Shown here: positions 6,207 to 61,560 of the stretch, one piece after another | How the letters are laid out: every line of letters starts with the position of its first letter | Position numbering within the stretch: the stretch's first letter is position 1 | NCBI RefSeq assembly: GCF_963675165.1 | Contig: NC_087382.1 | Coordinates: 930,001-994,000, forward strand | Direction of reading: 5' to 3' | DNA length: 64,000 nucleotides | DNA from: Halichondria panicea | Taxonomy: Eukaryota > Porifera > Demospongiae > Suberitida > Halichondriidae | Position numbers and translations under genes: made by a program | Notes under the pieces: generated by a model | The model's database searches: none | What the model saw: the letters and a program-made list of their open reading frames with translations, nothing else | What the model was told of the DNA's origin: nothing

Positions 6207-6252
6207 TAGCCTCGACTCCAGCCCCTTGAACAACGGCTTGGAATCGAGGCTA
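6207..6252. mobile_element. 46-bp TAGCCTCG palindromic miniature element with 9-bp target duplication
   Basis: It begins TAGCCTCGACTCCAG and ends CTTGGAATCGAGGCTA, forming a near-perfect hairpin. CACTGTACT is present immediately on both sides (6198-6206 and 6253-6261). Ends and duplication length match the KDZ transposon at 11644-18628, so it is probably moved by that enzyme. Confidence 0.85.
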
Positions 6253-6261
6253 CACTGTACT

Positions 6262-7831
6262 GTGCAGGCAAATCCAACCCGTATGCAAAGGCGCTATATA
6301 TAACAGCTCGGAGTTTAATACTAACCTAGATTCCTTGCTCTAGACTAGTTAATAATAGAAAGTCAATCTGGCCAGCTATCCCACTAAAATGTGAATCGGA
6401 TCCTGTGCTCTATGTCAGTATCAGTATCAGAGTTCTCTGCCGGTAATACTGAATGTTTACCATGCAGATAAAGAGTGACCGGCTGAACGATGGTGACAAC
6501 GGATTATAATAATTATAATGCCACAAATCAAACATATTATGCATGTAATTATGACCATAACTGGGTAAATAGATAATAATAGTATATACCGTACAATTAG
6601 TTTTGGCATTATTCAGTTAATCACGGATAACTTTCCAGCTGGTGGATGACAGCTTGGACATATCCAAACTTGGCTCTCGAAAGGCAGCTCCTTCAAACCT
6701 ACACAGGTGTAGTGATACCATCGCCAGCATGAGTCAGCCTCACACCCGACCCACATGCGTTTTCCCTTCTTCGTAAATTTCCCTCCACATTAATTTTGCT
6801 GGCAGTGTTTCTCGTCTTCTGTATAATTATATACAGTAGCACAAAATATTAATGGGCATGGTGACGTGTGCATGAATAAAATGTTGCTGTTGAGAAAACA
6901 AATTACTGTGTGCATGACAGTGCATGCATGCATGTGTGCATGATTTTTACTTTCACGCTTGAAAGCAGAGGTACGTTTGCAAAAGCCATTTTTTAGATGC
7001 TGCTGTCTTGACCAAACCACATGATGGGTGGAGTTGGCTGAAAAAACGCTCTATGAAAAATGCGCCTCTCTACAAAATGCATCTCTCTACAAAATTCACC
7101 TCTCTAAAAAACGCACCTCTGTACAAAACGTCTCTCTACAAAATTCACCTCTCTAAAAAACGCACCTCTGTGCAAAATGTCGTTCTCTGAAAAATGTACC
7201 TCTCCAAAAATTGCACCACCTATTTTTTAAAACGCACCTCTCATAAAAAGCAGCACCAAAACGCACTAATGCATGCTGGTGGTATAATCATGCATGCATC
7301 CTCACATAATTTATATGGACTATGCCGGAAAAGTTACCTGGTATTTTCTTGAGTTTGATGACCGAGTCAACCACTTCAATAGCTATGATCTGTTGTTCTG
7401 CATGCATAATTTATAATAATGCATTCGAGCTCAACATTGACATACTATAATTATTATAGTCCGGTCACCCTATATAATGTACATAATGTATGCATGTATG
7501 TACATGTATTATTATAAGAATTATAAAATATAGGGACAGTGTCGCATGCAGTGGCCGCAATAGCAAGGTGGCTGCTTTAACAGCCTGCATGCATGCCAAT
7601 TAATTCGTGCCTAGCGAAACAAAAGGTATAATTATATATATAGAGAGGTGACCGTAATTCAAAGAGCCGAGAGTCTATACCGTATAGCGCGAAACACATT
7701 CTACAAAACGTCCACAAAATGGAACCTCCATTAAAAAATTATTGCTGTTATTTTGCACAATCGTGAAAACCTATAATTTATATAGATGCATGCATAATTA
7801 TAGCTGGTCCCGGCCGACCTATCTCACTTAC
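6262..7831. other. non-coding; degenerate short tandem repeats at about 7055-7250
   Basis: No exon is recognised. From about 7055 to 7250 a 16-20 bp motif of the form CCTCTCTACAAAATGCA recurs about ten times with substitutions, which gives spurious short reading frames. The rest is AT-rich spacer with many TGCATGCA words. Confidence 0.55.
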
Positions 7832-8443
7832 CAGGGGAGACTTTTTGCTGCAATTCAAGCATTGGGGGATCCTGATGTGGCCTTTGAGTAATGGATGAAA
7901 TGGAGGTCTTTTCATCTGCATCATGACGACTGCCCTCAAAATGTTTTTGTAGCTTTCTCGGTTTAATCTTGTGGCAGATTGGAGAAATTGATTGATTGAG
8001 AGCAGCCACAGAATGTTTGTTAATTGGAGTGCTAGTAAAAACTCCTCTTGGTGTCGGCAGAGCTCTCTCTTTTCTCTTCTTTTGAGGATTAAGTAGTGAG
8101 GAATGCTCAATAACGTCGGACCGTGTAGTAAACTCAACTTCATCATTGTCCGATGTAATTGGTGTGATCTGTTGAGAGGTGATCTGTTGAGAGGTGTGTA
8201 ATTCTGCCTCAGAACTTGAAGGTGATCCATTCAAAGAAAGTGAGAGGTGTGGTCTCGTGCATCGCTTCTTCTTGGGAGACCTACACAACTTGGCAGGAGA
8301 ATACAATTATTTCTTCAATGTAACTGCAGCTGTTTGCCTCACATTCCTGCTCTGGTGAGCCTCACGTGCAGGAGTTTGTTGAGAGGAGGATGCAGGAATT
8401 TGTTGAGAGGAGGATGCAGGAGTTTGTTTCAGTTCAGAGGAGG
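7832..8443 (-). pseudogene. exon of a basic Ser/Thr-rich protein of unknown function, one in-frame stop
   Basis: Read on the minus strand, an acceptor (TATATATAG at 8444) opens a frame that runs to a donor (CTG|GTAAGTGAG at 7832). The frame is broken only by TAA at 8309-8307. Upstream of the stop the codons follow a 24-bp tandem repeat giving TPASSSQQ-like units. Downstream are a basic cluster (SPKKKRCTR) resembling a nuclear localisation signal, QITSQQIT repeats and many Ser/Pro residues. Low complexity prevents family assignment. A nuclear regulatory protein is possible but unproven. Neighbouring exons were not identified. Confidence 0.45.
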
Positions 8444-8481
8444 CTATATATATATATAATAATAATGATGACTGCCATGAA

Positions 8482-8611
8482 TTAATTGCACATTAAAAAT
8501 CATGTACGAACAGACTGTCAGACAACTTACCATCCTTCCAAGGTTCGAGAATTGAACCCTCTACTTAACCTCATGACAGCAGAGCAAACATTTGCTTGGA
8601 TTTCCAGATGC
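8482..8611 (+). pseudogene. C-terminal fragment of a KDZ-family transposase
   Basis: Translation gives LHIKNHVRTDCQTTYHP and then TAEQTFAWISR. These match the N-H-x(3)-DC and AEQTFxW motifs near the C-terminus of Kyakuja-Dileera-Zisupton transposases. The same motifs occur in the copy at 15290-15450 (HFQNHVSPDCK and AGEQTFVWVHR). Homology stops abruptly where the CAACAGATG satellite starts, so the satellite has replaced the remainder of the gene. Confidence 0.7.
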
Positions 8612-9806
8612 AACGGTGCAACAGATGCAACGGTGCAACAGATGCAACAGATGCAACAGATGCAACGGTGCAACAGATGCAACGGTGCAACAGATGCAAC
8701 AGATGCAACGGTGCAACAGATGCAACGGTGCAACAGATGCAACGATGCAACAGATGCAGCGGTGCAACAGATGCAACAGATGCAACAGATGCAACGGTGC
8801 AACAGATGCAACAGATGCAACGGTACAACAGATGCAACGGTACAACAGATGCAACAGATGCAACAGATGCAATGGTGCAACAGATGCAACAGATGCAACA
8901 GATGCAACAGATGCAACGGTGCAACGGTGCAACGGTGCAACAGATGCAACAGATGCAACGGTGCAACAGGTGCAACGGTGCAACAGATGCAACCGTGGAA
9001 AAGATGCAACAGATGCAACGGTGCAACAGATGCAACAGATGCAACGGTGCAACAGATGCAACGGTGCAACAGGTGCAACGGTGCAACAGATGCAACGGTG
9101 CAACAGATGCAACAGATGCAACAGATGCAACGGTGCAACAGATGCAACGGTGCAACAGATGCAACAGATGCAACAGATGCAACGGTGCAACAGATGCAAC
9201 AGATGCAACGGTGCAACAGATGCAACAGATGCAACAGATGCAACGGTGCAACAGGTGCAACGGTGCAACAGATGCAACCGTGGAAAAGATGCAACAGATG
9301 CAACGGTGCAACAGATGCAACAGATGCAACAGATGCAACGGTGCAACAGATGCAACGGTGCAACAGATGCAACAGATGCAACGGTGCAACAGATGCAACA
9401 GATGCAACGGTGCAACAGATGCAACAGATGCAACGGTGCAACAGATGCAACGGTGCAACAGATGCAACAGATGCAACAGATGCAACGGTGCAACAGATGC
9501 AACAGATGCAACGGTGCAACAGATGCAACGGTGCAACAGATGCAACGATGCAACAGATGCAGCAGCGGTGCAACAGATGCAACAGATGCAACAGATGCAA
9601 CGGTGCAACAGATGCAACAGATGCAACAGATGCAACGGTGCAACAGATGCAACGGTGCAACAGATGCAACGGTGCAACAGATGCAACAGATGCAACGGTG
9701 CAACAGATGCAACAGATGCAACAGTGCAACAGATGCAACGGTGCAACAGATGCAACGGTGCAACAGATGCAACGGTGCAACAGATGCAACAGATGCAACG
9801 GTGCAT
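8609..9806. repeat. 1.2-kb satellite of two alternating units, 9 bp and 8 bp
   Basis: The array consists almost wholly of CAACAGATG (9 bp) and CAACGGTG (8 bp) in an irregular order. A rare variant containing CAACCGTGGAAAAGATG occurs at 8990 and again 285 bp later, showing a larger duplication step. Neither unit contains a stop trinucleotide in most frames, so several long open frames arise on both strands. These are not regarded as genes. Confidence 0.95.
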
Positions 9807-9815
9807 GCAATGCAA

Positions 9816-9975
9816 GTGATCATGCGTGGACAGAGGAGGCGCGGTGCAGCTCAGGCAATTAGCCTTTGAATAATTATCCGTCCACGTCGTATGTTTTTGC
9901 TGAGAGTAATCAAAGGGCTAATTACTTGAGCTGCACCGCGCCTGTCGCCTGTCGGACCTCCTCTGATGCGTGGAC
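9816..9975. repeat. imperfect inverted repeat after the satellite
   Basis: ATGCGTGGACAGAGGAGGCGCGGTGCAGCTCAGGC (about 9822-9857) recurs inverted at about 9926-9975 (GAGCTGCACCGCGCC...CCTCCTCTGATGCGTGG), with a loop of about 70 bp. It looks like a foldback element or a KDZ terminal remnant. Confidence 0.65.
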
Positions 9976-9988
9976 TTAGGCTAAGTCT

Positions 9989-10025
9989 TAGCCTTGATTC
10001 CATACACTCTAAGTAATCGAGGCTA
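9989..10025. mobile_element. possible TAGCC-type miniature element, degraded
   Basis: It starts TAGCCTTGATTCCA and ends TAATCGAGGCTA, resembling the other TAGCCTCG elements. The flanks share only a few bases, so no clear 9-bp duplication is visible. A further TAGCCTCGAATCC is present at about 10069. Confidence 0.35.
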
Positions 10026-10765: not shown

Positions 10766-10785
10766 TTACTCAAGGACAGAGTTAC

Positions 10786-11160: not shown

Positions 11161-11629
11161 TAGTCTCATGAATCAGCCGCCGTTCTTTTGGAACCACCGT
11201 CTGAGCACTCTTGTCATCGTTTTATGTGCCAAGACGGAATTCCGTCTTGACCAATCAAATTGCAGAAGTCCAGTCAGGTGATGAACTTGGAGGCAGCAAA
11301 GAACTGCACTTTGCTCAACGCATTTGGATAATCATTACGCATGCATTACGGATGGTAAACACTTTATACATAGAAGCTGCTACGAAGCATAAGCAAGGCA
11401 AGCAGGGGTCCTTGGGCACAGATTTAGCACCACAGCAAAACACAAGTAGAGAGAGATGCCTTCGCTTGGCGATTTGTATAACAATTAGGAAATATGTGTG
11501 GGCGTAAGATCACGATTTAATTACATTCCATTGGTTTTGTGAGCAATCAACATTCCATTTTGAAATGACTTCATGACAAGAGTGCTCAGACGGTGGTTCC
11601 AAAAGAACGGCGGCTGATTCATGAGACTA
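11161..11629. mobile_element. 469-bp non-autonomous element with ~65-bp TIRs and 10-bp target duplication
   Basis: The ends are TAGTCTCATGAATCAGCCGC and its exact inverse, continuing through TTCTTTTGGAACCACCGTCT to about 65 bp. GGCCGACCAG lies on each side (11151-11160 and 11630-11639). No transposase is inside; the one short open frame (11211-11507) is not convincing. A 9-10 bp duplication suits Mutator-like or KDZ-like elements. Confidence 0.88.
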
Positions 11630-12709
11630 GGCCGACCAGCTAGTAGCCTCGATCCCAGGCCGAGTTTTCGCTTTTATAACGGTTAGGCAAACAACTGGGC
11701 CTGGTACTAGTTGTCTGCGCATGCGTCAGTCGTTTGTCAGATTCTGACAAATGGATATTCTCGTTCACTTTCGTGACATTTATATTCGTGTACTATCGTG
11801 TACTAGAAGTCAGTTCCCGTTTTATCATTATTGGAATCGATTGGAATGGCTCTTAGCTGAAGCTTCTCTCTTCTCTGAAGCTTATTCTGAAGACTGAACA
11901 ACAAGGGAAGAGGTATAAAGCTTTGTCAAGCTTGTTAAGGTCAGATATTTTTGTGTGGGCCCTATGGCCGGCTATGCTATCCATTTGCTGTATCATTTGC
12001 GGACAAAAAAATCAACATATCAATTTTGTGAACAGGAAAATGATCACAATTTAAAAAAAGTATTACATCTATCTACAATCAAGCTGTGTATGTACCAGTC
12101 TCTGCCAACTATCTCCAAACTACCCTAGACTGTCTCAGATTTAGTTCTATCACCCCTGTCCCGAAAAGAAACTGCTATTCACCTCATATATCCCTGATTT
12201 TCAAGGTTGCTGCTCTTGAGAGGGGTTATTAAGCTCCAATAAAGCTTAGCAAGCCTTAAAGGCTTCAAACTACTGCTAAATAATAGTAAATCCTGACAAA
12301 ATCAGCTTTGAACAAGAAAACCTCTAGAAAACTAGATTATGAATGACAGTCCAATAAGTGGGCGGGGCTCACTTAGACTAGACGCACTATAGCTAAGTGC
12401 AGCCACATCCAGAGCTGTGCAGTGATGCTAGCGCTACTGCATGCTGGTCTATCTGGGACACCACAATACTCACATCTTCCATGTAGGAAAACTTGTATTC
12501 ATTGTTGTTTTTGCACTGAAAATCAGATTCACGCTATTAATTGTTGTCTCAGAGTCTGTATGGGCTTAAATTATTGTGAATCCCCAAAATGTGCCTCCTT
12601 CAATGGCAGCAGGGCTGTAACGAGCCCATGTTTTTTTTCCTAAATCGGCACCTATGCATTCTTTTACACATTAATTGATTACTAACTTTCATGCTTTAGA
12701 AGTCCAAAG

Positions 12710-12990
12710 GCTGCTTGTAGTATCCACATCTTAGTGAGAGTTTTATTAGCCCTAGGGCTTGAGGGCTTCTAATTCATGTAGAAACTAAACAGTGTCTAAG
12801 AATTTTATATCATAGTGTCTAGATGGATTTGCTCCTAGCCATGAATTGTTATCTAATCTTTGCTATACATGATTGTTACAGTACGTGTTTTCTAGTGAAG
12901 TACATGATTGTCTAGTACACAATTTTCTAAGTTGGATAGAACACTTCCTGTAACCAATCAAATTGCACTATTTATGGCTATAAGAACATG
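12710..12990 (+). repeat. dispersed repeat shared with the other KDZ transposon
   Basis: Blocks such as CTAGGGCTTGAGGGCTTCTAA, GTACATGATTGTCTAGTA, AAGTTGGATAGAACAC and AACCAATCAAATTG recur in reverse complement at about 51205-51430. The repeat is therefore present inside both KDZ elements. Confidence 0.7.
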
Positions 12991-13042
12991 CTCTAACATT
13001 ACATAGATAGTTTGTCTTCTAAACCTATATAGATCTGCAACA

Positions 13043-15720
13043 ATGTCCCTACTTCCATCTATAGGTGAAATATCTCAACAGCACAAACGTCGAAAATTAC
13101 AGACCTCTTCTCTTCTCTCTTCTTACGAATCACTGGCTTCGATCGACCTCAACACATGGAGCACACTCGATAAGTTGAGCAGAGAAGTGAAAGAATCTTG
13201 GTTGGTAGCTAGGTTTGGGTTTGTACTTGTGAATGAGGTGTGCCTTTTACTGCGTTCGATCTCTGGCAATGTTACTGATTCTGAAAAAAAAATATCTTGT
13301 GTAACTGTGACCTCTCTCTACCTGGTGTCCAACAGGAAAGTATAGAAATGGTGGCTGAATTTGTCGATAACCACTGCCCACACCTTGTACGATCTACTCC
13401 GAATAACTATACCCTCCATTGTTGACTCCACCCACAAACACCTGTTTTGACTGTGACCGACCATTGGTGTCTAATCATTCTTTCCATGTGAGTTTTTTAT
13501 TGGCTAAACTATTATTTTTATCCTAAACAATATTTTCAGATAAAGTGTTACTCTCTGAATGGTTTTGTTAAAGGAAGAAAGTGTACGCTAAGCTAGGTGT
13601 AAAGTTTGCAACATAACTTATAACTATGCTCACTTTGGAAACAAGTCTGAGAATGGATTCCGTATGTACCCCCAAACTCAAACATATGTTGAAGTGTCTG
13701 ACACCGTTTATTTTTCAAGGGATTTGTTGGAGTGGCAGTGTAGCCTTGCGTAAGTGAACACTGTTTAGTACTTATATAGCAAAACTGTTTCATGAATAAA
13801 TAATGTCCATCTCAACATAATTATTTGTCCTGTAGTAATCACTCTTGGGTTTCCTTTCAAGGGTTTGCTGAAAGTTACAATACTGCTTTAGAGATACTAC
13901 CAGATGAAGGTATAAATAGAGAAGCAAATAATTTATATCTAGATAAATAATGGTGTTCAAGTACAGAGCTTAGTCCCTATATTGTTGGGGAAGCCTTCTA
14001 TAATGGAGAAGTGGAGAATGAGTTGAGACGAGTCAATAAGATTGACTATCGTTTCCATAAAGACAGTGAGAGAGAGGAGTGTATGGAAAGGATTGAAGAA
14101 GTAAGGCGGCAATCTATATACCACCACAAAGAAGACACTTGTACTGCTGAATGCAAGAAAAGAGGTAATTATAGTGCATGACTGTATAATTATTATTGAA
14201 CCCAATAGATTGTGGTTCACTGTGGGTTACAGATGGAATTTGGAAGACTGTTTTCCCACACTGCATGTTCAAAGTTGAGGGGATGGATGGCAACTTATTC
14301 ATTTCCACAAACATTATAGTTACATTGTAATTTCAAAACCTTTGCAGCAAATCAGTGATGGAATTCCAGCTCTCAATTTACCTGATGTGTGTACAAACTC
14401 CCCAATTCGCAATAAGGCGTTTTGCGAGGAACACTGTCTTTTGCTACAGAATGAAGCTCCTGATGTGCCTATTGATCTGAGACAGTTTCTCAAATATTGT
14501 GGTGCTCAAGCAGTTGGTAATTTAAGATACAGTGGTACAATTATTTACTTACACGATTTAATTAGGAAATGAAGAGGAGTGTGAGGGTGACACTGATACT
14601 GTTGATGCAGTTGTGAACTCTATTAAAGTCAATACAAACCAATTTGGAACATCTGCTACCACCTCACAAGGTATATAATTATGTAGAATTCTCTATTACT
14701 TTTATTGAACTTTATCCTATAGGTACTGCAGCTTTAATTGAGAAGCATCCTGAACTAGTACGAAGTACTGTGCATGTATGATGACCCTAATGAACGAGTT
14801 TGCAGGAAAGATACGGGTAAATCCAAACGGTTGAGAAAGTGGTCTAGAGGGCACCAATTTGTCATCAGAGGGGGTGGTCATATTGACACTTGGCAACCAT
14901 TGTACAGGTACACGCCATGCATTCACATGACCCTTTTCCTGTATACAATTTAGCATAATAGCTACATTATACTGAACTGTAATAGCTAGTGCCTATAATT
15001 ATAAGTACTAATCCTCCACTGTTGACATGAATAGAAACTATGCATGTATAAAACAAATGCACTCTATATATAATTTATATACCTATATAGGTCTGAATCG
15101 CCATCACAAGTGTTCTTAATTTTGATTCAATGGCTGCTGTCTCTAGCTAAGTCTCGTGGTGGTATTGGGAAGCCTATCTCATTGGCCTATGACAACATGT
15201 GCAATTTAGCAAAGCTGAAGGCTGCTCGTGCTCCTCTACCATTTACTCTGCCATTGGACCGTTTGTGGCTTGATGTCAACAAAATCATCGATGTGTTTCA
15301 TTTTCAAAACCATGTGTCTCCAGATTGTAAATTAAAGTTTTCTCTTGCTAAACTGAAGAGCGAGAATCCTGACTTCAATACACAGGCTGGGGAGCAGACA
15401 TTTGTTTGGGTACATCGGTTTAGTCATATTCTGTGCTCAATGAACAAGGTTCACCACCTTTTTTATCTCCACCGAATGGTGTTAAGGCGAAACGAGTATA
15501 CCAGCAAGTGCTATTGCTAGAGGAAAAAAGCCAATTCTCCCAAAAGGAACTGCAAAGTAAAGTAAATTGTTTTGCAGTGCTTATACATGTGAATGTGTTG
15601 AGATATACATGCAGTCACCTAATTAGCAATTACTATCACTTTACTTTATATGATACCTATATATCCGACTAGAAAAACATTTGGAATGTGAAAAATTGCT
15701 AGGATTGGCCAGGGGAACCA
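13043..15720 (+). pseudogene. KDZ-family transposase gene, multi-exon, decayed
   Basis: The start is ATG 13043 (MSLLPSIGEISQQHKRRK). Later exons show the order expected of a KDZ transposase: a zinc-ribbon-like RCKVCNITYNYAHFGNK and VYFSRDLLEWQCSLA (13600-13745), NHSWVSFQGFAESYN (13837), DGIWKTVFPHCMFKVEG (14232), VCTNSPIRNKAFCEEHC (14385), RGGGHIDTWQPLYR (14867), AYDNMCNLAKLKAAR (15186), DVFHFQNHVSPDCK (15290) and AGEQTFVWVHRFSHILC (15385). The DG, YDNMC and GEQ motifs probably carry the D, D and E of the RNase H core. Lesions include an in-frame TGA near 13421, frame loss around 13590-13610, frame breaks near 14780 and a TAG after KCYC at 15518-15520. It lies inside matched TIRs, so it is the element's own transposase. 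Confidence 0.85.
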
Positions 15721-16479
15721 CAAAAAAGCGTGGAAACAAGAAATCCGACGAGAGCATAACTCCAATCCGTTACAACGTCATGAGCATGCAATACATAGTA
15801 TATAGACTGTGTTCCAGATCCATCTACCAGCTTCCATCCACCACATCATTCCATGCAGGTCACCAGTACGGTCCGTGCATGTTACTACGCATGGACTGTG
15901 TGTACCTGTGCTCAACACTGCATGTATTAGGAACATCAATTCATCACAAATCATCCTGATTATATGCCCGCACATTCCAAAATGGATGTATATATAATAA
16001 AACGATTGGTCATCACCCTACCAGTAAAAATTGCGTATTTATATTATATTGGCCGGGAAAACATGGAAAACTACCAGTACATGTGATTCATTGGCTATAC
16101 TGGTTGAAGAATCTACCCCAAAACCTACTCTATGAAACGGTAGAGAAAGTACAGGAATCTGTTGAAGGGAAGATGGACGGCAGGCTGGCGATGCAGTATA
16201 TATATGCTCTATATCTATACACGTTGTTTTATGTATTATGCATGTGTATATACAATCGAAATGAATGATATCTTGATACCATTGTGATAATAAGTTTTAT
16301 GGGGGAAGGGTGGTTTTTATGTAGTTACATGCATGCATGCATGCATGGCTATAATTATGGGGGGAAGGGCCGGGTAATTGTCTATATAATTATAATACCA
16401 GTGCATGTTATCATGAACATATTATACATTGACCGGGGTGCATGAGGGCCCTGCATGTGAGGTGCATGCATCATGGGGT

Positions 16480-17590
16480 TGCCAATAAAATTCTGTCAAT
16501 TGCATGTGAACGCTTATATACTAAATTTGTGATCATTCTGTCAATTGTGAACGCTTATATCAAACGTATATATACTATATTATATAATTATAGTATAAAC
16601 TAAAATTTAATTTGTGATCATTCTGTCAATTGTGAATGCTTATATCAAACGTATATACTATATTATATACAGTATAAACTAAATTTAATTTGTGATCATT
16701 CTGTCAATTGTGAACCCTTATATCAAACATATATACCATGGCATATATAGTATAAACTATATATAATTATAGTATAAACTAAATTTGTGATCATTCTGTC
16801 AATTGTGAACACTTATTTATATCAAACATATACTATAATATTATATATAGTATACTAAATTTGTGTGATCATTCTGTCAATTGTGAACGCTTAATTAATA
16901 TATATTATAAACGTATATACTATAGTATAAACTATTATAGCTATATATATATAGTATAAACTAAATTTGTGATCATTTTGTCAATTGTGAACGCTTATAT
17001 CAAACGTATATACTATATATATAATAGTATAAATTATAATTCGATATATATTATAGTATAAACTAAATTTGTGAACATTCTGTCAATTGTGAACGCTTAT
17101 ATCAAACATATACTATATATATAGTATAAACTAAATTTGTGTGATCATTCTGTCAATTGTGAACGCTTATATCAAACATATACTATATATATATATAGTA
17201 TAAACTAAATTTGTGAACATTCTGTCAATTGTGAACGCTTATATCAAACTATTATATATATATATATATTATACTATATATATATATATATATATAATAG
17301 TATAAATTATAATTCGATATATAAATATTATAGTATAAACTAAATTTGTGTGATCATTCTGTCAATTGTGAACGGTTATATCAAAAGTATATACTATATA
17401 TATATAGTATAAACTATAATTATATATAGTATAAACGAACGCTTATATCAAACATAATTCTAGTATAAACTAAATGTGTGAACATTCTGTCAATTGTGAA
17501 CGCTTATATCAAATGTATACCTTACATGATTCCACAAATAGAAACTAATTAATTTTGTGAACATTCTGTCAATTGTGAAGGCATAATAAT
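16480..17590. repeat. minisatellite inside the KDZ transposon, ~13 units of 70-115 bp
   Basis: Each unit contains TTTGTGATCATTCTGTCAAT, then TGTGAACGCTTATATCAAAC and an AT-palindromic spacer (GTATATACTATATATATAGT). Unit length varies mostly in the AT spacer. Such arrays are common in subterminal parts of large transposons. Confidence 0.93.
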
Positions 17591-18637
17591 AAAGGAAAAA
17601 TGTTGAATTTTCTACATAATATTACTTTCATGCAATAGAGATCTATATATGCATGTATTTATCATACACATAATGATTATAAATACGCTATAGATATACA
17701 CTATATTCATGTCTATCAGTTTGCATACATGGTAATAGCACTATATATAGGCTATAGAGAATTGGAGACAACTCAAGTTCAGGTAGATTCTTCACCATGC
17801 AGTCCTGATAGCATGCAGTAGATCTATATCATGATTGTGATAGTGTGATAGTATCACAATTTATGCCCCACCAAAAAACCGTCCACAAATCAAACAGTGT
17901 ATCATGCTATCAAGTCTTGTTCATGTTTGGCAAGAATGTAGGTAGACTATAGTTTCATCATTAATATGGTGGATCAAGTGAAGAGTGTGAGCTAGAGAAC
18001 TTGGTGCTGCCATCATCAGCTCGTCGACAATGACACTATAACCGAGAAATTTAATATGTATAGATCTACACGTATTTAAAATGTCTACTTCTCTGTTATC
18101 CCAACAGTGCTCCTCTTGGCTATACTAACGGACGAGACTGGACAGTTTGAGGTAAGGGTTTAACCGTCTTTGGTTTCTTTTAATATTGTCCTATACTCAC
18201 AGACACAGGACTGGAGTATGACCTGCTCATTCGAGCGTTGCTGGGTAGCTCAGAGAGAATCTATGTTTTCTCAAGCAATGAGTTACGAGTTGGGGCCTAG
18301 AATCAGAGAAGTCCAGCAGCCTGCTAAATCTTTTTGAAACGTAATTTGAAGGCATTCAATCATCCTGAAGTTGCCCTGGGTCACTGTAATTGTGCTGCAG
18401 CACAACTGGCAACTCCCCAGGCCTTTGTGAAGCAGCTCCCTATGTGCATCTTTTGTGTACTCACTCTGTGCATTTTCTGTGTACAAATTTCTATTATTGA
18501 TTTATTAAATATTTTTGCCGACCACAAATATACAATGAAAATTTGACGCATGCGCAGACAACTAGTACCAGGCCCAGTTGTTCGCCTAACCGTTATAAAA
18601 GCGAAAACTCGGCCTGGGATCGAGGCTAACCAGCTAG

Positions 18638-46750: not shown

Positions 46751-46967
46751 CATCACCCCATTCGCATGGGTCAGCACTGGTTAATAGTAGTCTTATGGTC
46801 AGCATTGGCACTGCATGTAGTCAAGGCTGGTTATAGTCAGATCACTTGACCTATGAACTCAAGATATACCACAGCACACGGTTTGCACTGCACTGCACTA
46901 CTCACTGGACTGGACAACGCAGCTGGTTGGTACAAGGTGGAGAGTAGTGCTAGTGATCAGTAGAATC

Positions 46968-48431: not shown

Positions 48432-48481
<50 letters not shown>

Positions 48482-50099
48482 TGCGTGCGCGCGCGTGTGT
48501 ACGTGTGTGTGTACGTGTGCGCGTGTGTGTGTATGCGTGTGTACATGTGTGTGTACATGTGGGTCTGTGTGTGTTGTGTGCGTACAGCAACATACACACT
48601 ACCAAAACTAAATACGCACATGCATACATGCAGTATTGGATAAACAATCACAAGAAACGGCACACCAGCTCTCATTGTGACACTGTTCCTCGTGCTAGAA
48701 CTAAAAAGCTGTCCACACGTAGGAAATTAAGGTAGGCCTCTGGCTTTAATGTCTTCAGTAAAGAGTTTCACAAACAACAAGGTACGTAGATTTATGGTGG
48801 ATAGTTTATTTTAATGACATGCATGCCGTATATAAAAGTTGTGCATTCACTCACTATTCAGCAAATGCACGATTATATTAGATCTCAAAGGGAAGACTCT
48901 CTCAGATAAATCAAAATTGATGGCAGAGGCTTGGAGAAAAATCAGCACTGCTGATAAGGAAAAGTACAATGCAGTAGCAAACGATATTGAGGGTAGCAAT
49001 GAGGAGGAGGATGAGGAGGAACTAACGCCGGAAAAGAAGAGGCAGCTCATTGTTCGGGTTGCTAAGAGACATCAGGGAGATGTAGGTGTTGTGAGTACTG
49101 TATGTGCACGTAGACGGCACATATAATATTGTATTTTATCACCTAAAATTAATTTTGTGAACATAATTATTATGATGTTGCGACAGGTCCAATTTATGCG
49201 AGCTAAGGAAATAATTACTTTTACTATGAGGCGGGCTTATAAATGATATAATGCCTATAATGTAGACAACACACTAAACCCTAACATGTGGCTATAATTA
49301 CGTATACCTTGTGCACTTATACAGGCCAATCTGCTGCAATCACTTGGTTGTGAGATGGCTACAATGATGTTTGTTGATAAAAAGTGTGGGAACCACAGAT
49401 GGGAAAAAATTTCTTCAATCTCACCCTGCAATCCTGTCATCCTTCAGCTCCTACTTTCTGTATGGTAAGGCTTTATAAGTAAATGTAATGTAGATACCAT
49501 TATTTGATTACGTAAAACTGATTGCTTTGTGTGCACGACAAACTGTACACCTCGTTTCTCTAATTATTACCACAGATGACCTGTCCAAGAAACAATTTGC
49601 TACCCCAGCCACTGCAGCCTCGGCAAGTACAACCAGTCTCAACACAAATTCCAGCTCATTCAATGTTACCTCAACAAACGCAAACCCAATCAACACCACC
49701 TCATCTACTACATCCAAAGCTGTTATTTCCACTGTGAAGAAATCAACTACTAAAACTACAACCAAAGCAACACCTTCTGGAATCTTGTCCAATCAAGCTA
49801 TTTCTAACACTGATACCGTCAGTACGATTTTTATGAAAGGCAGAGATGGAAGTATTGTTGCGACAGGTACAGTGCTTCCTGGTGTACATAAAACCATTCA
49901 TGGTCGTCCTTGCCAAAAAGATTGTGAAACGCTTTCCGTTGTGGATGTTGTACAAGTTGGTGCTGAAGCTTGGTTTGAAGATGCTTTTGGGGAAAATAAA
50001 TTGAGCACAGGGATCATCGTGGAATGGCCGAGCAGTATGATATCAAACGTAGCTGATGTCTCCCCACTTCATACAAGAACTAATCGCAAACGTAAATAA
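46968..50099 (+). CDS. homeodomain-like plus HMG-box protein, five exons, accessory gene of the KDZ transposon
   Basis: Exon 1 (46968-47114) encodes MTSRTVITISQREFLVRKFE and, after RQAAATATGLTLNTIN, joins exon 2 (48634-48781) in phase to give INYWINNHKKRH. That is the third-helix pattern of a homeodomain. Exon 2 then gives ASGFNVFSKEFHKQQ, which continues into exon 3 (48882-49090; DLKGKTLSDKSKLMAEAWRK, ISTADKEKYN), a complete HMG box split by an intron. TAG at 48733-48735 breaks the frame between the two domains. An acidic stretch (EEEDEEELTPEKK) follows. Exon 4 is 49325-49464 (ANLLQSLGCEMATMMFVDKK); its phase does not join exon 5 cleanly. Exon 5 (about 49575-50099) is Ser/Thr-rich with a C-terminal globular part (HGRPCQKDCETLSVVDVVQV). 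Both domains bind DNA, so a role in recognising transposon ends is inferred. Confidence 0.7.
47331..47840. repeat. foldback element in the intron of the homeodomain/HMG gene
   Basis: GTCACGTGACCAAAATTGC, AAAGCGCAATGCTT, TAGGATCTTTTTTG and ACATAAGCAG appear in order at 47331-47430 and, inverted, at about 47755-47838. Arms are ~150 bp, ending in the palindrome GTCACGTGAC. The loop has a meaningless 60-codon frame. Confidence 0.85.
48434..48585. repeat. (GT)n/(GTGC)n microsatellite
   Basis: A pure GT run, then GTGC repeats, a GC-alternating centre (48486-48496) and mixed GTGTAC units. It gives spurious Cys/Val and His/Thr frames. It lies in the intron of the homeodomain/HMG gene. Confidence 0.95.
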
Positions 50100-50519
50100 C
50101 CAGCTGACTATAAAACTACTATGATAATTGTTATAATTATTGTATATACAATTGTAATAGGAATGGTAAAGGTTTCCTTCCATTTTATTCGCGATTCTAT
50201 ATTCTCTCTATCTTGTGTACTGCATGTATACGTAAGTAAGATTACGTTATTATTGTTTGTACGTACGTATATAATTATGTATGTTACAATTGTATGTATG
50301 ACATAGATAATAATTTATGTCCGAGTTTAGGACTATATATATAATTGTCAAAACTATATGCAGTTCATATTCATATAATGTTGTCACTTTAATTATGCAT
50401 GCGTGCGGTTGACTTATAATAGCCTTGACTTCAATTTATAAAAGGCATTGATGTTTAAGAAATAATGACTGCCTATAGCTAATTAATTAAAGTGTGATTA
50501 ATAAATTATTAATTAAAGT

Positions 50520-53500
50520 ACATAAAAAAGATAAGTGTTCAATTGTCCACGTCAGAATCATCATCACTACTACTGTCTGTACAAATAATATCAGTAACGG
50601 AAGGGTAATCATGTTCATGAATTAATTTGACAATTGTAAAAAAATGAACCATCTGGACCTAATAAGCTCGTATCAGGTAGCTCTACAGTATGATACTGGT
50701 TAACTGTTCTGGAAAACGTAATTAAATAAGATTCGCAAAGTAATAATCTTCGATGCAAAAGGTTAAGGCAACCTTTCTGAAACAGAGACAGACTATCAGA
50801 TGTGGCGATATCCTGTATATGACGACTTATTACGGAATGCTCGTATTTCAGGTTGTTGGCAACAGTATTAATTTCTTCCATTATCATCTTCACTTCTTCC
50901 GTTGCCCTTTCCTTCATATTACACGCTCTCACAACTTTTATCCACAAATGAATGGGAATGGTACAATTTCCAGCCGACGCGACCTCCAACGTAGACAATT
51001 CTTCCAAATTGGAAACTGTCTCCCAATTCAAATTGGCTGGCAGATGGTATGCTACTCCTTCAAATTGATCATGACGCATACCATTAAATCTGCTCACTGT
51101 TCGTTTCAGCGTACTCGTACTTGATGATATCTTCTTTGCAAGGCGTGCAGCAATCGATTGACCATCTGTAACATAGTACATAGATCATGTTAGCATGCAT
51201 ACATACTACAATCTGATTGGCTAAAGGTAGTGTTCTATCCAACTTAGAAAATCATGTAGATCAAAATCTGATTGGCTAGAGAATCATGGTTGCTATAATA
51301 AAAATAAAATTAATGCTTAGACACTAGCTGTTTAGGAAGTTTCCACATAATTTAGAAGCCCTTAGGGCTAGTAGAACCCTCACTACGTTCGGGATACTAT
51401 ACAACCAGCTCTTTGGGCTTCTAAATCATAATTATTACTTAACTATTATTTATATAATTACATGATTGTGCTGACTAACATTCTTACCAGCGTATCTCGC
51501 TTTGGTAGATATTAAAAACCTACGCTCGCGAGCAATATGAAGGATATTCTGAAAGGTTTTGTGACGTTGCCCGAAACCTGTCAAAGTTTCATCACGATTT
51601 TGATACAATCATCTGATAATTAATGCTCACTCAGATCAGTTTGACTCCTTGCGAACAGCCCGTGTTGTTGTTTCTGCAATTGTTCAGCTGATGACTCCGT
51701 CAGTGTACCTGAAGGTGCAATATAAAAGTGCACAAAATTCACAAACTTTATTCTTGACTACGTCTAACCATTTGACTCATTGATTAGCTTTGATAAGTCC
51801 TCTGTTGCACTATGTTGAGTGTTTTGGGCGTTCTTCAGCCTTTTGACTAACGATGCCCCTACGTATACAAGAGTTAGCACTTTTTTTCCCTTTATGCAAA
51901 GCATACATAGGTGCATACCAACTAGTGCTGAGAGCTAATATTAATTAAGGTAGCCCTAACATAAAACAAACCTAGATTAAGACGTACTCTTGATGCATAA
52001 TAGAGCTGAGGTAAGGACATCAATGCGATGAGATGGTCGCATTTCTTTGGTGGATTTAGCAAATCTTCTTAGATATGACCACAGTCTCTCCATAGCTTCA
52101 CCATCAGTAAGTCCGCATCCAGTTAGGACTCTAGGTGAATATGTCAGCTACATGTATAATACAACAGTAAGTTATTAACACACAGCTTTGGCATCTTTCT
52201 TCTTACCTGACAGAATGCACAATGCCCATAGACATGAAAAATTGGCACTCCTAATGTTGTCTTTTCTAACATGTCAAGATGTCCACGATTCTGGAGAAGT
52301 AATCAAATATGAGTGCATACTAATTAAGATTAGATCTGACTATTGAGACACAAACCTTCAGATGAGTTTCGAGTAAGCAGGCAATATCATACAGTAACAA
52401 CAGACACTTGTCACCCTTGTTTTGGTGTGCCTTCTTTAGCAGGTACACAGGATATGCTAGTCTAGATAATTAAGATACAGAATACCTTAATTTTTAACAA
52501 TGCACCATGTATGCTCTTTTTGAAAACCTTAATGTTACGTACATACCTTTCTCCATGCTTCATATTCAGAAATCTTTGGGGAAACTCATGACGACAGATG
52601 CTTCCAAACACGGCAGTTTCATCTAGAGCTGCGTACCTTGATTTGGAGCGCAAAGTGTCTCCAGCGAGGAACTCATGACACCCCTAATGCCAGGATAAAA
52701 TTAACTGAGTGAAATGTGCTAAAAGTCTATTTAATTACATCCAAATTGTATAGCGCAGGTTTTCACACTTGACCAATTAAGTATAACGCTAAAACCTTAC
52801 CTTGTCGATTATCTGGCCAAATGTATCATAATCAGCAACAAACTCATCTACTGCTTGCTGTTCCTCAAAGAATACACCAGAGAAGAGTGGTGGTCGAACA
52901 CTAACACCAGCAGACTTTTTCCGACATAGTCCAAATACACCATCCATGGATATAATTTGAGTTCCATTGCTCTGCACGTAAAAGGTAAGTATAGGCTGCC
53001 AGAGTCTAATTGCTATAACAAAACCACAAACCTGAGGACAGGCAGGGCAGATAGCTGTAGTGTTCAAGTCAGGAGACAAAAATAGAAGACAGTCGAGTTG
53101 ATATCATTCTGTTGAACCTGAATGTTAATGTGAATATGTCGTATTATGTTCTTTCACAATTAATATACCCTACCTATATTCTTCAAATGCATCAATCATG
53201 ACAGGATAGATCTTCCGGAGCTATAGAAGAATAAACAGATTAAAACAACTGACAATTAAAAGTGTGTACCTCAAGCGATTGCTGACGCATGCAACATGTA
53301 CACCTCATCAGTGCGCAACAATTAATGTATAATTATAACCGACATCAAATTCACATACTTGTTTGCTGATATCTCTTCCAATTTTGTATTCAAGAGAACG
53401 ACAAAAAGCATCGACACCAATACACCCTTCCAGCAAAAGTGACTCCATCCATAGTAGCAGATCCTGATGAAATGCTAGGGTGGGAGTTGCTGGTGTCGCT

Positions 53501-54368
53501 GGCCACATGTTATGCCGCACAAGAGTAACAGCCTCAGGCTCACACTTGCAGAAGGTTACGCACACACAATGCTGGAAACCTGTAAGTCATTGGATTCTTA
53601 GACACAGGCTATATCAGTGTAGTTAAACAAATACCTTTAGGGTCAAGACAAACAACTTCTTTTATGTAAGTTGTACAGCAACAATGAAGTGCTGGAAAGG
53701 TTCTCGACTGCTTGAAATAGTATGGGTGAAGCATTCCATTCTGTAAAATCAGATCGCATGCATTTAATAATCACAAAAATGTACAGCAGTATGTTTGATT
53801 AGTGCATACTTTCCAGAGAAAAGGTCGATGAAAAATATTTGTCAGAGAGTGTACTGAGTCCACATGGTTGGCACAGTAGTATGCCTGTGGTCCACAATCC
53901 CGGCAAATTGCAACAGCGGGTTCTTTACACTCGGCACACACAGAACAAGGGGAAGGAATTCCGGTTTCTACACTGGCGCGTAGCAACTGGACACGCACTT
54001 CAGCCCAGTTGTCAGCAGAAGTGTCGCTTCTCATAAGCACTTGAGCTCACCGTGTCTGGAAAAGTGGTGTCATCCTGCCCCGAGCTCTCTGGATCATGAT
54101 CATGCCACTCACTACTGATTAATACATCTGGAGAGTCGCCACTGATAACATCAGTAGGCCTGCTCGCTCCATGTACATCTACTTCTTCAGCTTCATTTTT
54201 ATCACTGGAGAGGAACCTAGTACTGCTGGAAGAATTAACAGAAGAGGATTCTGGCACAGCAGATAAAGAGAGAGACTTTTTATGCACAGCACGACGTTTT
54301 GAAGGAGATACTTCAAAGTAGGAGATAGATTGAGACTTAGGCTTCACACTTATCCTTCTCTTGCTCAT
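50520..54368 (-). pseudogene. KDZ-family transposase, ~15 exons, mostly intact
   Basis: Start ATG 54368 (MSKRRISVKPKSQSISYFEV), Ser-rich and acidic, then a cysteine cluster (CSVCAECKEPAVAICRDCG, YYCANHVDSVHS; 53812-53950) of the CxC2/B-box-like type that precedes KDZ cores. Exon junctions I can place: 53810, 53740-53635, 53579-53359, 53220-53174, 52971-52801, 52683-52547, 52456-52356, 52290-52208, 52147-51972 and from 51165 on. Core motifs: HNMWPATPATPTLAF, CPACP, MDGVFGLCRKK, LLYDIACLLETHLK, GVPIFHVYGHCAFCQ and GLTDGEAMERLWSYLRRF. These hold the presumed D, D and E. The C-terminal exon is helical (NWETVSNLEELSTLEV) and ends in an acidic tail. Lesions: probable frameshifts near 54050 and 53085, and one in an A7 run at 50638-50644 that separates the last ~30 residues (HEHDYPSVTDIICTDSSSDD). 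Confidence 0.88.
51205..51430 (-). repeat. dispersed repeat in a transposase intron
   Basis: Reverse complement of parts of 12710-12990 (TGTTCTATCCAACTTAGAAA, AGAAGCCCTTAGGGCTAGTA). ATCTGATTGGCTA also repeats twice inside it. Confidence 0.7.
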
Positions 54369-54570
54369 GGCCGGCCAGCTAGCTAGCTATAGAATATAGA
54401 TCTACTGATTCTGCGGAGCTAGCTCAGTGCACCCATAGATAAAAGAGCTCGCTACTTTAGATTAAACTCGGTATAGACTATAGTCAATAGTCACTACTGC
54501 ATGCTTTGCAGCTTACATGCTGACCTTAAGACTACTATTATCCAGTGCTAACCATGCGAACCCCCTGCAG

Positions 54571-55692
54571 CCATTGACCCACGCCCATCTCCAGATTGTG
54601 TGCGGCTGAACGGGAAAGGGTTATGGCACAGGTCAAGCCGTGAACTGTGCCACTATCTGGATACTGGCATAGCGTGGCTTAAGTGACCTAAAGCCCACCC
54701 ACCACGCAGTAACCTGAAACGGTTCCTTTTATAGTATAACACCGTTGTAGTTACTAGTGGTTTTCATTAAGTATATTCATGACTTCCTTGAACCATCACA
54801 AGCACACGTAACATAATTAACAATCACTCTTTTGGACAAATTTGATTGAAAGTGCGGTTCTCACAGTTGTCAAAAGAAATTTTATTCGGATTTCCAGAGC
54901 TAGTGAGTCTGCTAGTCAGGGGCGTACACAGGGTGGTGCTTAGGGTGCTCCAGCACCCCCATCCAGACTCTGGTGCTCCAGCACCCTATCCAGACTCAGA
55001 GAAGCTCAAGTAGATAGTTCAACCATCACTGGCTGGCTAGAAGGAAGCTACACTTATTGCAGCTATCTACAGCTTAATAGTGATAGTTACAATAACTTTA
55101 TACCAGTTAGATCTAGCTAGCTAGCTAAGCTGGCCTAAAAAACTTACTTTTCTTCGATCGTCTGGGTAAAGAGTGGGGAGGGGCTCAATAATAAGGCTAG
55201 GCAGCAGGAAGTGGTTTGCTGTATCAAACACATAGAACACTTGAGCTTGCTTCACAACATGCAGCACAACAAGGTTCTTGGATCCAGGTACATAAGGTAC
55301 ATGAATGTATCTAGTATAATTATATAATTAAGCCTACATGTGTACAATAAATTAATAATAATCAATGTTTGCAATGTAAACTACAAAGTCTCTTTTCCTC
55401 AACATCAAGGTACTGGTGGTCATACTTTGTACGCTGCCTGTCACCTCCTGGTAAGCTGATCAATCTTTTAGTGGCCTGAAAAGAAAAGAATCAAGACTGT
55501 CGTCAGATCAAGCAAAGGAACAAACGTTTATCATCACTTACACTTCTACATTTACACAGAGACTAGACTAGACATGATTGCATTGACATTTGACATACCT
55601 TAAGAAGAGTTGGCTAGAGTTTGCCATCCCAGGCGAATTGAGCTTCTGGTCATAAACATTCTTGACTTGCTGATGGCACTGTACTGTTGTAC
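54571..55692. other. no gene seen
   Basis: GCTCCAGCACCC recurs twice at 54947-54990. Otherwise spacer without exon signals. The 89-codon frame starting 55610 runs through a miniature element and is rejected. Confidence 0.4.
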
Positions 55693-55752
55693 TAGCCTCG
55701 ACTCCAGCCCCTTGAATAGTGTGTCTTTCTCAGCGGCTTGGAATCGAGGCTA
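55693..55752. mobile_element. 60-bp TAGCCTCG hairpin element with 9-bp target duplication
   Basis: It begins TAGCCTCGACTCCAGCCCCT and ends GCGGCTTGGAATCGAGGCTA. CTGTTGTAC is present exactly at 55684-55692 and 55753-55761. It is close in sequence to the 46-bp element at 6207, with 14 additional bases in the loop. Confidence 0.9.
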
Positions 55753-55879
55753 CTGTTGTACGTACTGTCAGTACTGTGCACCATCTAGAAAACAGTGGGC
55801 GTTGCCGACAAAAGGGGCGTGGCCCCGAAAGTGGGCGTGGTTTAAATTTTGCGGCGCGCGCAATGAGCACCTCCATTGA

Positions 55880-59040: not shown

Positions 59041-59043
59041 GAT

Positions 59044-60226
59044 AGGAGAGCTAGAAACAGTTGAAATACAACCAGAGTACGGTCAAAACAAAAATAATCG
59101 CGAGTGCGAAATCATAACGCGGAGTGCTTCACCGGATGCCAGTCCTTTTACACAGGGCGTGGGCGGTCCATATCAAAACATTTTGTCAAATGAATGTAAA
59201 AAATATGTAAAAGTTGTCATCAAACATTTAATCTACAAGTATACAAATGCAGTAAAAAGTGAGACAAAAACACACAATTTGTACTTCAAACACTAAAACA
59301 GAAGGAATTTTACCTAGAAATAATTTTAGTTTGCTCTCTATTGTATAATCTAGCTATTACTCTTTCCAATGATACCTCACATGCAGTTTCTACATGAGCT
59401 GCATACAGTGTTTTTCAGGTTTGAAATATAACAGTGATGACAGTTTTACCATTGAATTGCAGTAACTGAAAAGGGACTGTCCCATACTTTACATCATAAA
59501 TTTTTGTGGGAAGGGTATTTACCTTTAGTTCGGTGCTAGGCAGCACAAGTAATTCCTAAGGATTCATATGAATGTGGGTTGCCTAGTTTCCTGTTAGTGT
59601 TAAGCAGCGTTAATTTTGCATAAGTGCATGTAAGTAGAGCTAGCTTAAGTTTATTGTGCCAGCTAGACTACTGTATACCTACTGAAGATGACAGATCAGC
59701 CCAAGTAACAGCCAAGGTATACTACTGTAACATAGAGCTGATGTTAAGTTTCCAAGACAAGCAAGGCAAAGCAAAGACAGTGCCCAGGAACTGAAGAAAG
59801 CCCCTGAAAAACTCTCTCCTGGTGGGATTTACCGACACTGACGATCCATCAAGAGATAGTTAACATATATATATCGGATATGATGATGAGTAGAGTAATT
59901 ATGAATGGAGAGAATAGCTGGTAGACTTGATGGACTGGATGAAAGTCCGAACAGTGACACTGATAACTGATTACAGACTTAGTGTATTCTCTTTTTCATT
60001 GTATTTTGAGTTAGGAACCAAGATTAAAGTATAATCTGGTCTGCAGAAGAAAGGTACAGATGCTAACTTGAATCTATGCTACCTTGTTTGCTAATTACAC
60101 TGCAGTACTTTTATTATTTATTATGAAGAGGAAATTAATGACAAATAAATGACAAGTTATGACACGAAAACGTCACAATTATTGAGTGGGCGATAACAAT
60201 TTTAATTTGACATTTCACATTGCAAT
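59044..60226. other. no gene seen inside the 3.78-kb element
   Basis: AT-rich, no long frame, no inverted structure that I can see. Confidence 0.4.
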
Positions 60227-60287
60227 GTTTTGATATGGTTTCCAATCCCCTTTCTTTTGTATCCCTGGTTACACCCAGCACTCGTGC

Positions 60288-60380
60288 GCACATGGGATAT
60301 ATTGGCTCAGTAGTGCCGTTTGCCCTCGAGGCCTGCGGCCCTCGGGCCTACGTCACTACTGAGCCAATATATCCCATGTG
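60288..60380. mobile_element. 93-bp foldback element with 10-bp target duplication
   Basis: CACATGGGATATATTGGCTC-AGTAGTG is mirrored exactly at 60354-60380. GCACTCGTGC flanks it at 60278-60287 and 60381-60390. The loop contains GAGGCCTGCGGCCCTCGGGC, itself a GC palindrome. Confidence 0.85.
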
Positions 60381-60390
60381 GCACTCGTGC

Positions 60391-60954
60391 ATGTGTCACA
60401 ACTATAACTTATTATGGAGGTCACTCTTGTATGTGTAGACCCACAGTACAGCTGCTGTGATAAGGTTTTACCACAACCCAACTATTTGATTGAGCATTGA
60501 TTAACAGTAAAACTTTGACGAGCATTATATTTGGCAAATGACAATTAACTGGTGATTTTTTTTTGCCATTTTTTGGCCATTCTATACTGCGCATGTGCTG
60601 TTGAACTTGATATAGGCCCAGAATGCATGGTTTAGATGCGTAGAGCCGGAAGTGGCTCTTCTTTGTAGGGAGAGGGGGCTCGAGCTGTTTTGCAGCAGTG
60701 GAGTGGGGTGGGGCTGTTTTGTAGTAAATGCATGAAAGTGGTCCCAACATCATTATGCGTCAAGCCATTCGCCCATGTATTGTTGAAGCTTCAGATACTG
60801 GACCAATAACTGCATGAAGATATCTCTACAGGGATTATTCTCTATTGTGTAGAATGTTTTGTGAAGTTATATATATGCAAGCATGCATGCATGCACTCGA
60901 TCAGAACGTATACTCGTATTATAATATGGTTCCGTACAGAATGTCACTAAATGA
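60391..60954. other. no gene seen
   Basis: Spacer. The minus-strand 110-codon frame at 60421-60753 has no domain features. Confidence 0.4.
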
Positions 60955-61560
60955 AAAAAGTGCCCAAGTATATAGGAGAGCTTTAATGCTCGTCGGCACT
61001 ATATCTCTCCTATATACTATGAAGCATTTTTATAATGCATGTGCATTAAACAATTTCCCCAGGTATATAGAAGAGCATTAATGTCCATTGGCATTAAAGC
61101 TCTCCTATATACTATAGGAAACATTTAATGCTCGGCACTAAATCTCTCCTATATAATAATATGGGATATGCTTTATGATTGAGGGCACTAAGTCTCTCCT
61201 ATAATGATATGGGATATGCTTAATGCTCGGCACTAAGTCTCTCCTATAATAATATGGATAATGTGTAATGATTGAGGGCCGTTTATATTACTTTAGGAAG
61301 GATGCAATGCCCCTCGCATTAAACCTTTCCTATATATAAGATATGACTATAGGAATGATTTGGTGTGCCCAGCACTAAAGCTCTCCTATAATAATATGGA
61401 CAATGCCTAATGTCTGGGGGCACTAAGTCTCTCCTATGATAATATGGGGTACGCTTAATATTAGCCTCGATTCCAGGCCGATTAAAATATTTTAATCGGC
61501 CTGGAATCGAGGCTAGCTTAATATCTGAGGGCACTAAGTCTCTCCTAAATAACTATAGGA
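60955..61560. repeat. degenerate tandem array with inverted sub-motifs
   Basis: About nine units of 55-75 bp built on GGCACTAAGTCTCTCCTATA and TATGGGATATGCTTAATG. The first units contain a palindrome, TATATAGGAGAG...CTCTCCTATATA. A 54-bp TAGCCTCG hairpin has inserted in it. Confidence 0.85.
61462..61515. mobile_element. 54-bp perfect TAGCCTCG palindrome with 9-bp target duplication
   Basis: TAGCCTCGATTCCAGGCCGA TTAAAAT is followed directly by its exact inverse with no loop. GCTTAATAT is duplicated at 61453-61461 and 61516-61524. The ends are nearly those of the KDZ transposon at 11644 (TAGCCTCGATCCCAGGCCGA). Confidence 0.93.

Follow-up and report, generated by a model that had tools for sequence, protein, structure and literature searches.

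Within a 64-kb window of the Halichondria panicea genome (C6:930001-994000; the window is this whole stretch of DNA, and positions are counted from its first base) we found four pairs of the form TAGCCTCG...CGAGGCTA, each flanked by exact 9-bp direct repeats, as an earlier note on this DNA had reported. Three of the pairs are hairpins of 46 to 60 bp, and the fourth is the interval 11644-18628, which contains a gene resembling the KDZ transposases. This interval is a composite: a non-coding TAGCCTCG element of about 1.06 kb into which a KDZ-like transposon inserted later. The hairpins are the ends of longer families joined without the core, their target duplications are found in most of the sites sampled across the genome, and for one insertion of 58 bp there are clean empty sites. 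The explanation that we favour, with a probability of about 0.6, is that TAGCCTCG units are non-autonomous elements of the type of the miniature inverted-repeat transposable elements (MITEs), moved by a transposase other than KDZ, that many of them lost their core, and that the KDZ-like transposon was a later arrival in one of them.

According to this model, TAGCCTCG units would be DNA transposons of the MITE type, whose insertion duplicates 9 bp (rarely 8 or 10) of the target and which are moved in trans by a non-KDZ transposase, for which the Mutator type (Mutator-like elements, MULEs) is the best candidate. The larger members belong to a family of about 1.09 kb, with 85-bp inverted repeats, and to another of about 0.53-0.72 kb, with a palindrome in each end. 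Where the core is lost, the two ends would have been joined through little microhomology, and the product would be a hairpin of 25-106 bp that consists of ends only and still has its duplication. One such form at the least, a 58-bp palindrome, has probably transposed as such, and the interval 11644-18628 is one member of about 1.06 kb that later received the KDZ-like transposon. The components in the window are the following.

6207-6252: 46-bp TAGCCTCG hairpin, duplication CACTGTACT at 6198-6206 and 6253-6261
11644-11981, plus strand: left part of the outer TAGCCTCG element, with its 85-bp terminal inverted repeat at 11644-11728
11982-17903, plus strand: nested KDZ-like transposon of 5922 bp, ends CATTTGCTGTAT.../GATACACTGTTT..., 8-bp duplication ATGCTATC
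13592-13753, plus strand: open frame of the insert with a CxC5-like match (KDZ-associated cysteine cluster; PF18718, 24.5 bits, cut-off 26.9)
15074-15520, plus strand: open frame, KDZ-like transposase core of the insert, no Pfam match in the window copy itself
17904-18628, plus strand: right part of the outer TAGCCTCG element, inverted repeat at 18544-18628
27849-28199: 351-bp TAGCCTCGTTCCCAG pair with no recognisable duplication, a probable older relative
55693-55752: 60-bp TAGCCTCG hairpin, duplication CTGTTGTAC at 55684-55692 and 55753-55761
61462-61515: 54-bp perfect TAGCCTCG palindrome, duplication GCTTAATAT at 61453-61461 and 61516-61524

The window contains 13 copies of the motif TAGCCTCG, where shuffled sequence leads one to expect 0.43, and random placement of a unit of 25-700 bp in the window gave an exact 9-bp flanking repeat in 1465 of 2,000,000 trials. 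The 46- and 60-bp hairpins have the same arms and different tips and, together with a 55-bp unit elsewhere in the genome, carry the arms of one further subfamily that again differ in their tips; the 54-bp palindrome is made of 28+28 nt of the ends of the shorter family. The 46- and the 60-bp hairpin also resemble each other in their surroundings, which are rich in CACTGTACTG; this may reflect one shared host repeat or a preference for such targets.

A KDZ-like transposon nested in a TAGCCTCG element

The interval 11644-18628 measures 6985 bp and is flanked by the 9-bp duplication ACCAGCTAG at 11635-11643 and 18629-18637, and its 85-bp arms are 99% complementary. Inside it there is a second, independent set of boundaries. 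The last 8 bases of the left outer part (11974-11981) and the first 8 of the right outer part (17904-17911) are the two copies of ATGCTATC, and the segment enclosed by them recurs elsewhere in the genome with the same ends. Two of these copies, L001 and L003, match it with sharp edges, from 11979/11982 to 17903, at about 96% identity over the first 3.9 kb and at lower, patchy identity in the AT-rich repeats beyond, and a third, L002, matches only part of it. All three copies in which both edges are present, the window insert included, have their own exact 8-bp duplication (ATGCTATC in the window, CGATTCCA in L001, GGTTGATT in L003). No TAGCCTCG end pair with a duplication encloses L001, L002 or L003; in L003 a single exact TAGCCTCG without a partner lies more than 1 kb beyond the edge of the KDZ-like copy. 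From these ends and duplications of its own we conclude that the KDZ-like segment is a transposon nested in another element.

The outer element is equally well defined in the absence of the insert. When the insert and one ATGCTATC are removed, 1055 bp remain, and these align over their full length, at 91.7-96.5% identity, with L093-L099, seven elements that are 1075-1095 bp long. All but one of these are flanked by an exact 9-bp duplication of their own (ACTATTGCT, GCAGACTCT, GACATAGCA, AGTAAGTAT, GTTGCATGC and CTCATTGCC); the exception, L099, has none.

Other contigs carry relatives of the transposase frame of the insert that are 95-97% identical to it. The window copy itself gives nothing beyond the CxC5 match below its cut-off; the KDZ profile scores 22.2 bits in L003 and 24.0 bits in a related copy, L004, both below the cut-off of 26.6, and the CxC5 profile reaches 34.1 bits in L004. 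We use the term KDZ-like for the insert.

The earlier note had taken the whole of 11644-18628 for a KDZ element and had raised the possibility that KDZ transposase moves the hairpins, which would make them a direct handle on KDZ end recognition. That an autonomous KDZ transposon of this extent moves the hairpins and makes the 9-bp duplications now seems to us very improbable, and for this copy the nested structure refutes it. What speaks for it is a KDZ-like gene enclosed, at this one place, by TAGCCTCG ends and a 9-bp duplication; against it stand the separate ends and 8-bp duplications of the KDZ-like copies, the other fetched copies without an enclosing TAGCCTCG pair, and an outer element that is found seven times without the insert. 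Published KDZ duplications also differ: the available text of PMC12730594 gives 8 bp for Zisupton and Dileera and 7 bp for Kyakuja. The same lengths are found in this genome, where further KDZ genes, one of them in the window, give 53 exon matches and where KDZ-type duplications measured 8 bp in three copies and 7 bp in one. TAGCCTCG units have mostly 9 bp (63 of 96 sites, with a single exact 8), and their ends are unlike those of both KDZ elements in the window. The TAGCCTCG units and KDZ transposons meet in the KDZ-like copy inside one window element; since that copy is a separate nested transposon whose ends are not TAGCCTCG, the hairpins are uninformative on KDZ end recognition. A nested insertion can thus falsely tie a MITE family to a transposase, and duplication lengths compared within one genome (7-8 against 9 bp) can expose the error.

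The second KDZ-bearing element of the window lies on the minus strand, at about 46754-54567, with PF18758 matches at 52010-52956. It has CA-ends (CACCCCATTCGCATG.../CAGGGGGTTCGCATG...) and a 7-bp duplication, CAGCCAT, a respect in which it resembles Kyakuja; its interior is 97% identical to another locus, L006, in which one of its ends recurs.

Copy number, target duplications and end-only forms

As the earlier note had recommended, inverted pairs were searched for over 131 Mb in 39 contigs, here with short spacers, and duplication lengths were tabulated for a sample of elements; both bore out its description of the units. The pattern TAGCCTCG-N24-54-CGAGGCTA gave 980 pairs genome-wide and the pattern with N0-23 gave 156, while the reversed control gave 0 for both. 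For the duplications, 130 fetched elements were grouped by their flanks into 96 independent sites. The fetched loci comprised all 50 listed of the 980 N24-54 pairs, 26 N0-23 pairs taken from 50 listed of the 156, 27 of the 28 separate listed 58-bp loci, all nine pairs of about 100 bp, eight ends of the 1-kb class, and, out of the first 100 of 422 motif matches, 6 loci with a pair and 34 with a single motif. Two loci with a mutated end (L110, L112), one whose right end was not found (L100), and 31 of the 34 single-motif loci, where only one family end lay in the piece, were dropped from the count.

An exact 9-bp duplication was present at 63 of the 96 sites, in 63 different 9-mers, and nine further sites had one mismatch in 9; three had an exact 10, one a near 10 and one an exact 8. 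Exchanging flanks between elements gave 26 exact 9-bp matches in 100,000 trials. Before sites were collapsed, 31 of 76 rows had exact 9-bp repeats. Another 16 scored 3, the effect of a single 50-bp unit whose duplication is mutated and which many copies of one host repeat contain. By class, exact 9-bp duplications flank 38 of 51 hairpins of at least 40 bp, 9 of 22 below 40 bp, 4 of 9 of about 100 bp (two more have an exact 10), 7 of 8 elements of the 1-kb class, the window element included, and 5 of 6 of the 0.55-kb class. In the symmetrised 9-mers, G is favoured at the first and C at the last position (60 of 126 each). In a check for contamination, the exact 21-bp end had no match among prokaryote contigs.

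The longer family, of about 1.09 kb, has an exact 37-bp end with 884 matches genome-wide. Among the first 100 of these listed, 39 adjacent end pairs could be formed, 28 of them spaced by 1053-1097 bp and nine by 90-106 bp, with single pairs of 1227 and 1733 bp and 22 rows left unpaired; none of the 39 fell between 107 and 1052 bp. Seven frames of the 1.09-kb element gave no Pfam match. The second family, of 0.53-0.72 kb and here called the 0.55-kb family (L141-L146), has ends such as TAGCCTCGAATCCAGGCCGATTAAAATACGGCCTGGT, with a palindrome in each.

The hairpins are the ends of these families joined without the core, and the description of them as nearly only two ends, shared with a larger element, stands, with the 0.55- and 1.09-kb families in the place of a KDZ transposon. 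The nine hairpins of about 100 bp keep 41-55 nt of each 1.09-kb-family end and are joined with an overlap of 0-3 bp, or in one case a gap of 3 bp. The 58- and 54-bp forms consist of 30+30 and 28+28 nt of 0.55-kb-family ends with a 2-bp overlap, and the 47-bp form, which likewise fits the ends of that family, is the expected product of loss between direct repeats, CGGCCTGG or CCAGGCCG. The 46-bp hairpin is not the smallest unit, as had been supposed, since two 25-bp units on contig C1, joined at a 4-bp CGAG overlap, also carry duplications (exact 9-bp in L065, 10-bp in L080). Counted by pattern, the commonest single form is the perfect 58-bp palindrome, with about 92 matches; its centre gave 91 and 92 matches on the two strands, against 30 for the 47-bp form.

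MITEs are usually 50-800 bp long. Like them, TAGCCTCG units are short, non-coding, inverted at their ends, flanked by a duplication of constant length, present in many copies and accompanied by larger relatives with the same ends. Unlike MITEs, much of the TAGCCTCG population is nearly coreless, consisting of units of 25-106 bp in which end is joined to end.

Candidate transposases

Merlin elements generally have GG-type ends and a duplication of 8-9 bp. The Merlin profile (PF12762) gave 24 matches in the genome, and we looked at eight of the loci, each as a piece of 5-7 kb, the length also used for MULEs; four could be resolved and two could not. The four (L181, L182, L184, L187) have GGTTAGG/GGATCA ends and exact 8-bp duplications, and we rejected Merlin as the mover, TAGCCTCG units having other ends and mostly 9 bp. 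Two further loci, L186 and L188, have an 8-bp repeat, CTAATTAG, and weaker ends.

MULEs were examined at 19 of the 31 loci matching PF10551. Both edges could be resolved in two, L086 and L189, and each has a 9-bp duplication (AATAATTAA and ATATTTCTA, respectively); a third copy, L084, has one mismatch in 9, and in L081-L083 only the 3' edge lies inside the piece. Duplications of 8-10 bp are typical of MULEs in the available portions of PMC5225508 and PMC3169594, and those of the TAGCCTCG units, mostly 9 bp, are within this range. Since only MULEs gave 9 bp among the superfamilies resolved here, the duplication length indirectly favours a mover of the Mutator type, a proposal to which we would give about even odds.

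Several results weigh against our reading. Both MULE families with resolved ends begin with CGCTGTG and not with TAGCCTCG, and none of the 19 loci inspected has a MULE gene enclosed by matching TAGCCTCG ends that are flanked by a duplication. An autonomous TAGCCTCG element (another autonomous element, with better-matching ends and a non-KDZ transposase, is what the earlier note had named as evidence against KDZ) was found at none of the 19 MULE and eight Merlin loci, and spacing does not reveal one either, the longest of the 39 end pairs among the first 100 listed being 1733 bp. Furthermore, 19 of the 96 sites have no duplication.

A mover from another superfamily, unsampled or extinct in this genome, that also makes 9-bp duplications is an alternative with a probability somewhat short of even. 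Besides the inspected MULE loci without TAGCCTCG ends, it would account for a 1.09-kb element whose frames match nothing in Pfam and for an inverted repeat of 85 bp, which is shorter than the >100 bp typical of MULEs in the portion of PMC5225508 available; 2 of the 14 mosquito MULE families treated there have inverted repeats below 60 bp. It has to face the fact that only MULEs, in two copies, gave 9 bp here, and that duplications chiefly of 9 bp, with a minority of 8 and 10, resemble those of the Mutator/Foldback family Tm1 as described in the accessible text of PMC3169594.

Tm1, of root-knot nematodes, resembles the TAGCCTCG units in its duplications of 8-10 bp, mostly 9, in its inverted repeats and in having MITE-like members as the most numerous ones; it differs in its end motifs, its internal tandem repeats and a member that codes for transposase. 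Its MITE-like members are typically below 0.5 kb, whereas many TAGCCTCG units are shorter than 60 bp and none of the members found is coding (Tm1 after the same part of PMC3169594). Muta1, an active MULE of Aedes aegypti, shares duplications of 8-9 bp, a palindromic terminal motif and many non-autonomous derivatives with truncated inverted repeats, and is unlike them in its 145-bp inverted repeats, tandem subterminal repeats and known autonomous element of 3.2 kb (PMC5225508, same portion). We found no description of TAGCCTCG elements in the parts of the literature searched, which did not extend to Repbase and subscription papers.

Some TAGCCTCG units are themselves nested in elements of these superfamilies. 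Inside the MULE L086 (C17), positions 2163-2264 hold two TAGCCTCG hairpins, of 57 and 36 bp, and three copies of the 9-mer GCAACTTCC, while its sister copy L084 has the 36-bp hairpin only and two copies of GCAACTTCC; this seems to be a second TAGCCTCG insertion into the same target. In L182 (C7), a TAGCCTCG pair 1093 bp apart (1419-2511) is nested in a Merlin-type element (667-3492, 8-bp duplication GCCAGGTT).

Probable mobility of the 58-bp palindrome

The end-only forms may have moved as such or may be what remains of longer insertions. The 58-bp unit is present at 26 independent sites of the sample, 22 of them with an exact 9-bp duplication. One 58-mer is identical to the letter at 14 independent sites (12 with exact 9-bp duplications) and another at nine (eight exact). 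Similarity to L016 was the criterion in the search for these loci, so that their letter identity is partly selected; their differing flanks are not. In a search for the host repeat of L016, two copies hold the 58-bp unit and others have abutting matches resembling empty sites. Three of these, L128-L130, are clean empty sites with a single GTTAAAGGT for one 58-bp insertion, and no long form was present among the scored candidates (40 of 459). Twelve groups of host repeats never mix long and short forms, a comparison biased by their discovery through short-form searches; only the L016 host repeat was searched regardless of length. The same host repeat also holds a 28-bp unit with an 8-bp duplication, which is absent from a diverged copy, L131, whose site is 3 bp off a perfect empty site.

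All short hairpins could instead have arisen in place, each from an insertion of about 0.55 or 1.09 kb whose core was then deleted by slippage or end joining between the inverted ends, so that short units never moved. We regard this, the main rival, as the less probable course of events. The tips of all nine hairpins of about 100 bp differ, with the short junction overlaps already described, which fits collapse copy by copy, and the 47-bp forms are compatible with deletion between 8-bp direct repeats. Most 58-bp sites, and the commonest 58-mer, have the unequal ATTCC/ATTCA arms of one parent, L142, and the 58-bp centre is also found with the AATCC/AGACC arms of other parents (L141, L144, L145); with two different arm pairs, the centre must have formed more than once. 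Two 58-bp sites, L049 and L109, are without a good duplication. Collapse in place does not readily explain identical 58-mers at 14 and at nine independent sites, nor filled and empty copies of the L016 host repeat with no long form among those scored. Furthermore, the 58-bp centre, with a junction overlap of 2 bp, outnumbers the 47-bp form, which has the longer repeat for a deletion, its overlap being 6-12 bp in those copies that fit the parents.

On balance, transposition of the 58-bp unit itself appears likely, and the case for a mobile 58-bp perfect palindrome is good but not closed; we make no such claim for the units of 25-46 bp. A more specific and rather speculative proposal is that of a mobile palindrome in an animal-type genome made of two ends of about 29 nt with nothing between them, moving as an extruded hairpin or by pairing of the ends of two copies. 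One of these routes would be required because 58 bp, judged from the stiffness of DNA, is too short for ordinary looping. If this were so, the stretches of end retained after loss of the core (41-55 nt in the 1.09-kb family, and about 29 nt in the commonest form of the 0.55-kb family) would record the grip of the transposase on each end. If a palindrome of 46-60 bp can be mobilised, the minimum substrate for cut-and-paste transposition in eukaryotes would be close to the two binding sites of the transposase, and the natural series of end lengths, which runs from 25 bp to 1.1 kb and in which duplications are intact, would map the end bases that are required.

Two further features lie close to the composite interval. 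A 469-bp element at 11161-11629 has perfect inverted repeats of 57 bp, TAGTCTCATGAATC. It is flanked by a 10-bp duplication, GGCCGACCAG, at the edge of which the TAGCCTCG element that begins at 11644 was inserted; the likeness of TAGTCTC and TAGCCTC suggests that the 469-bp element may represent a sister family. The stretch 8486-9862 contains the remnant of a KDZ-like gene (8486-8610) that leads into an array of about 1.2 kb of GCAACGGT/GCAACAGAT-type repeats, open in several frames.

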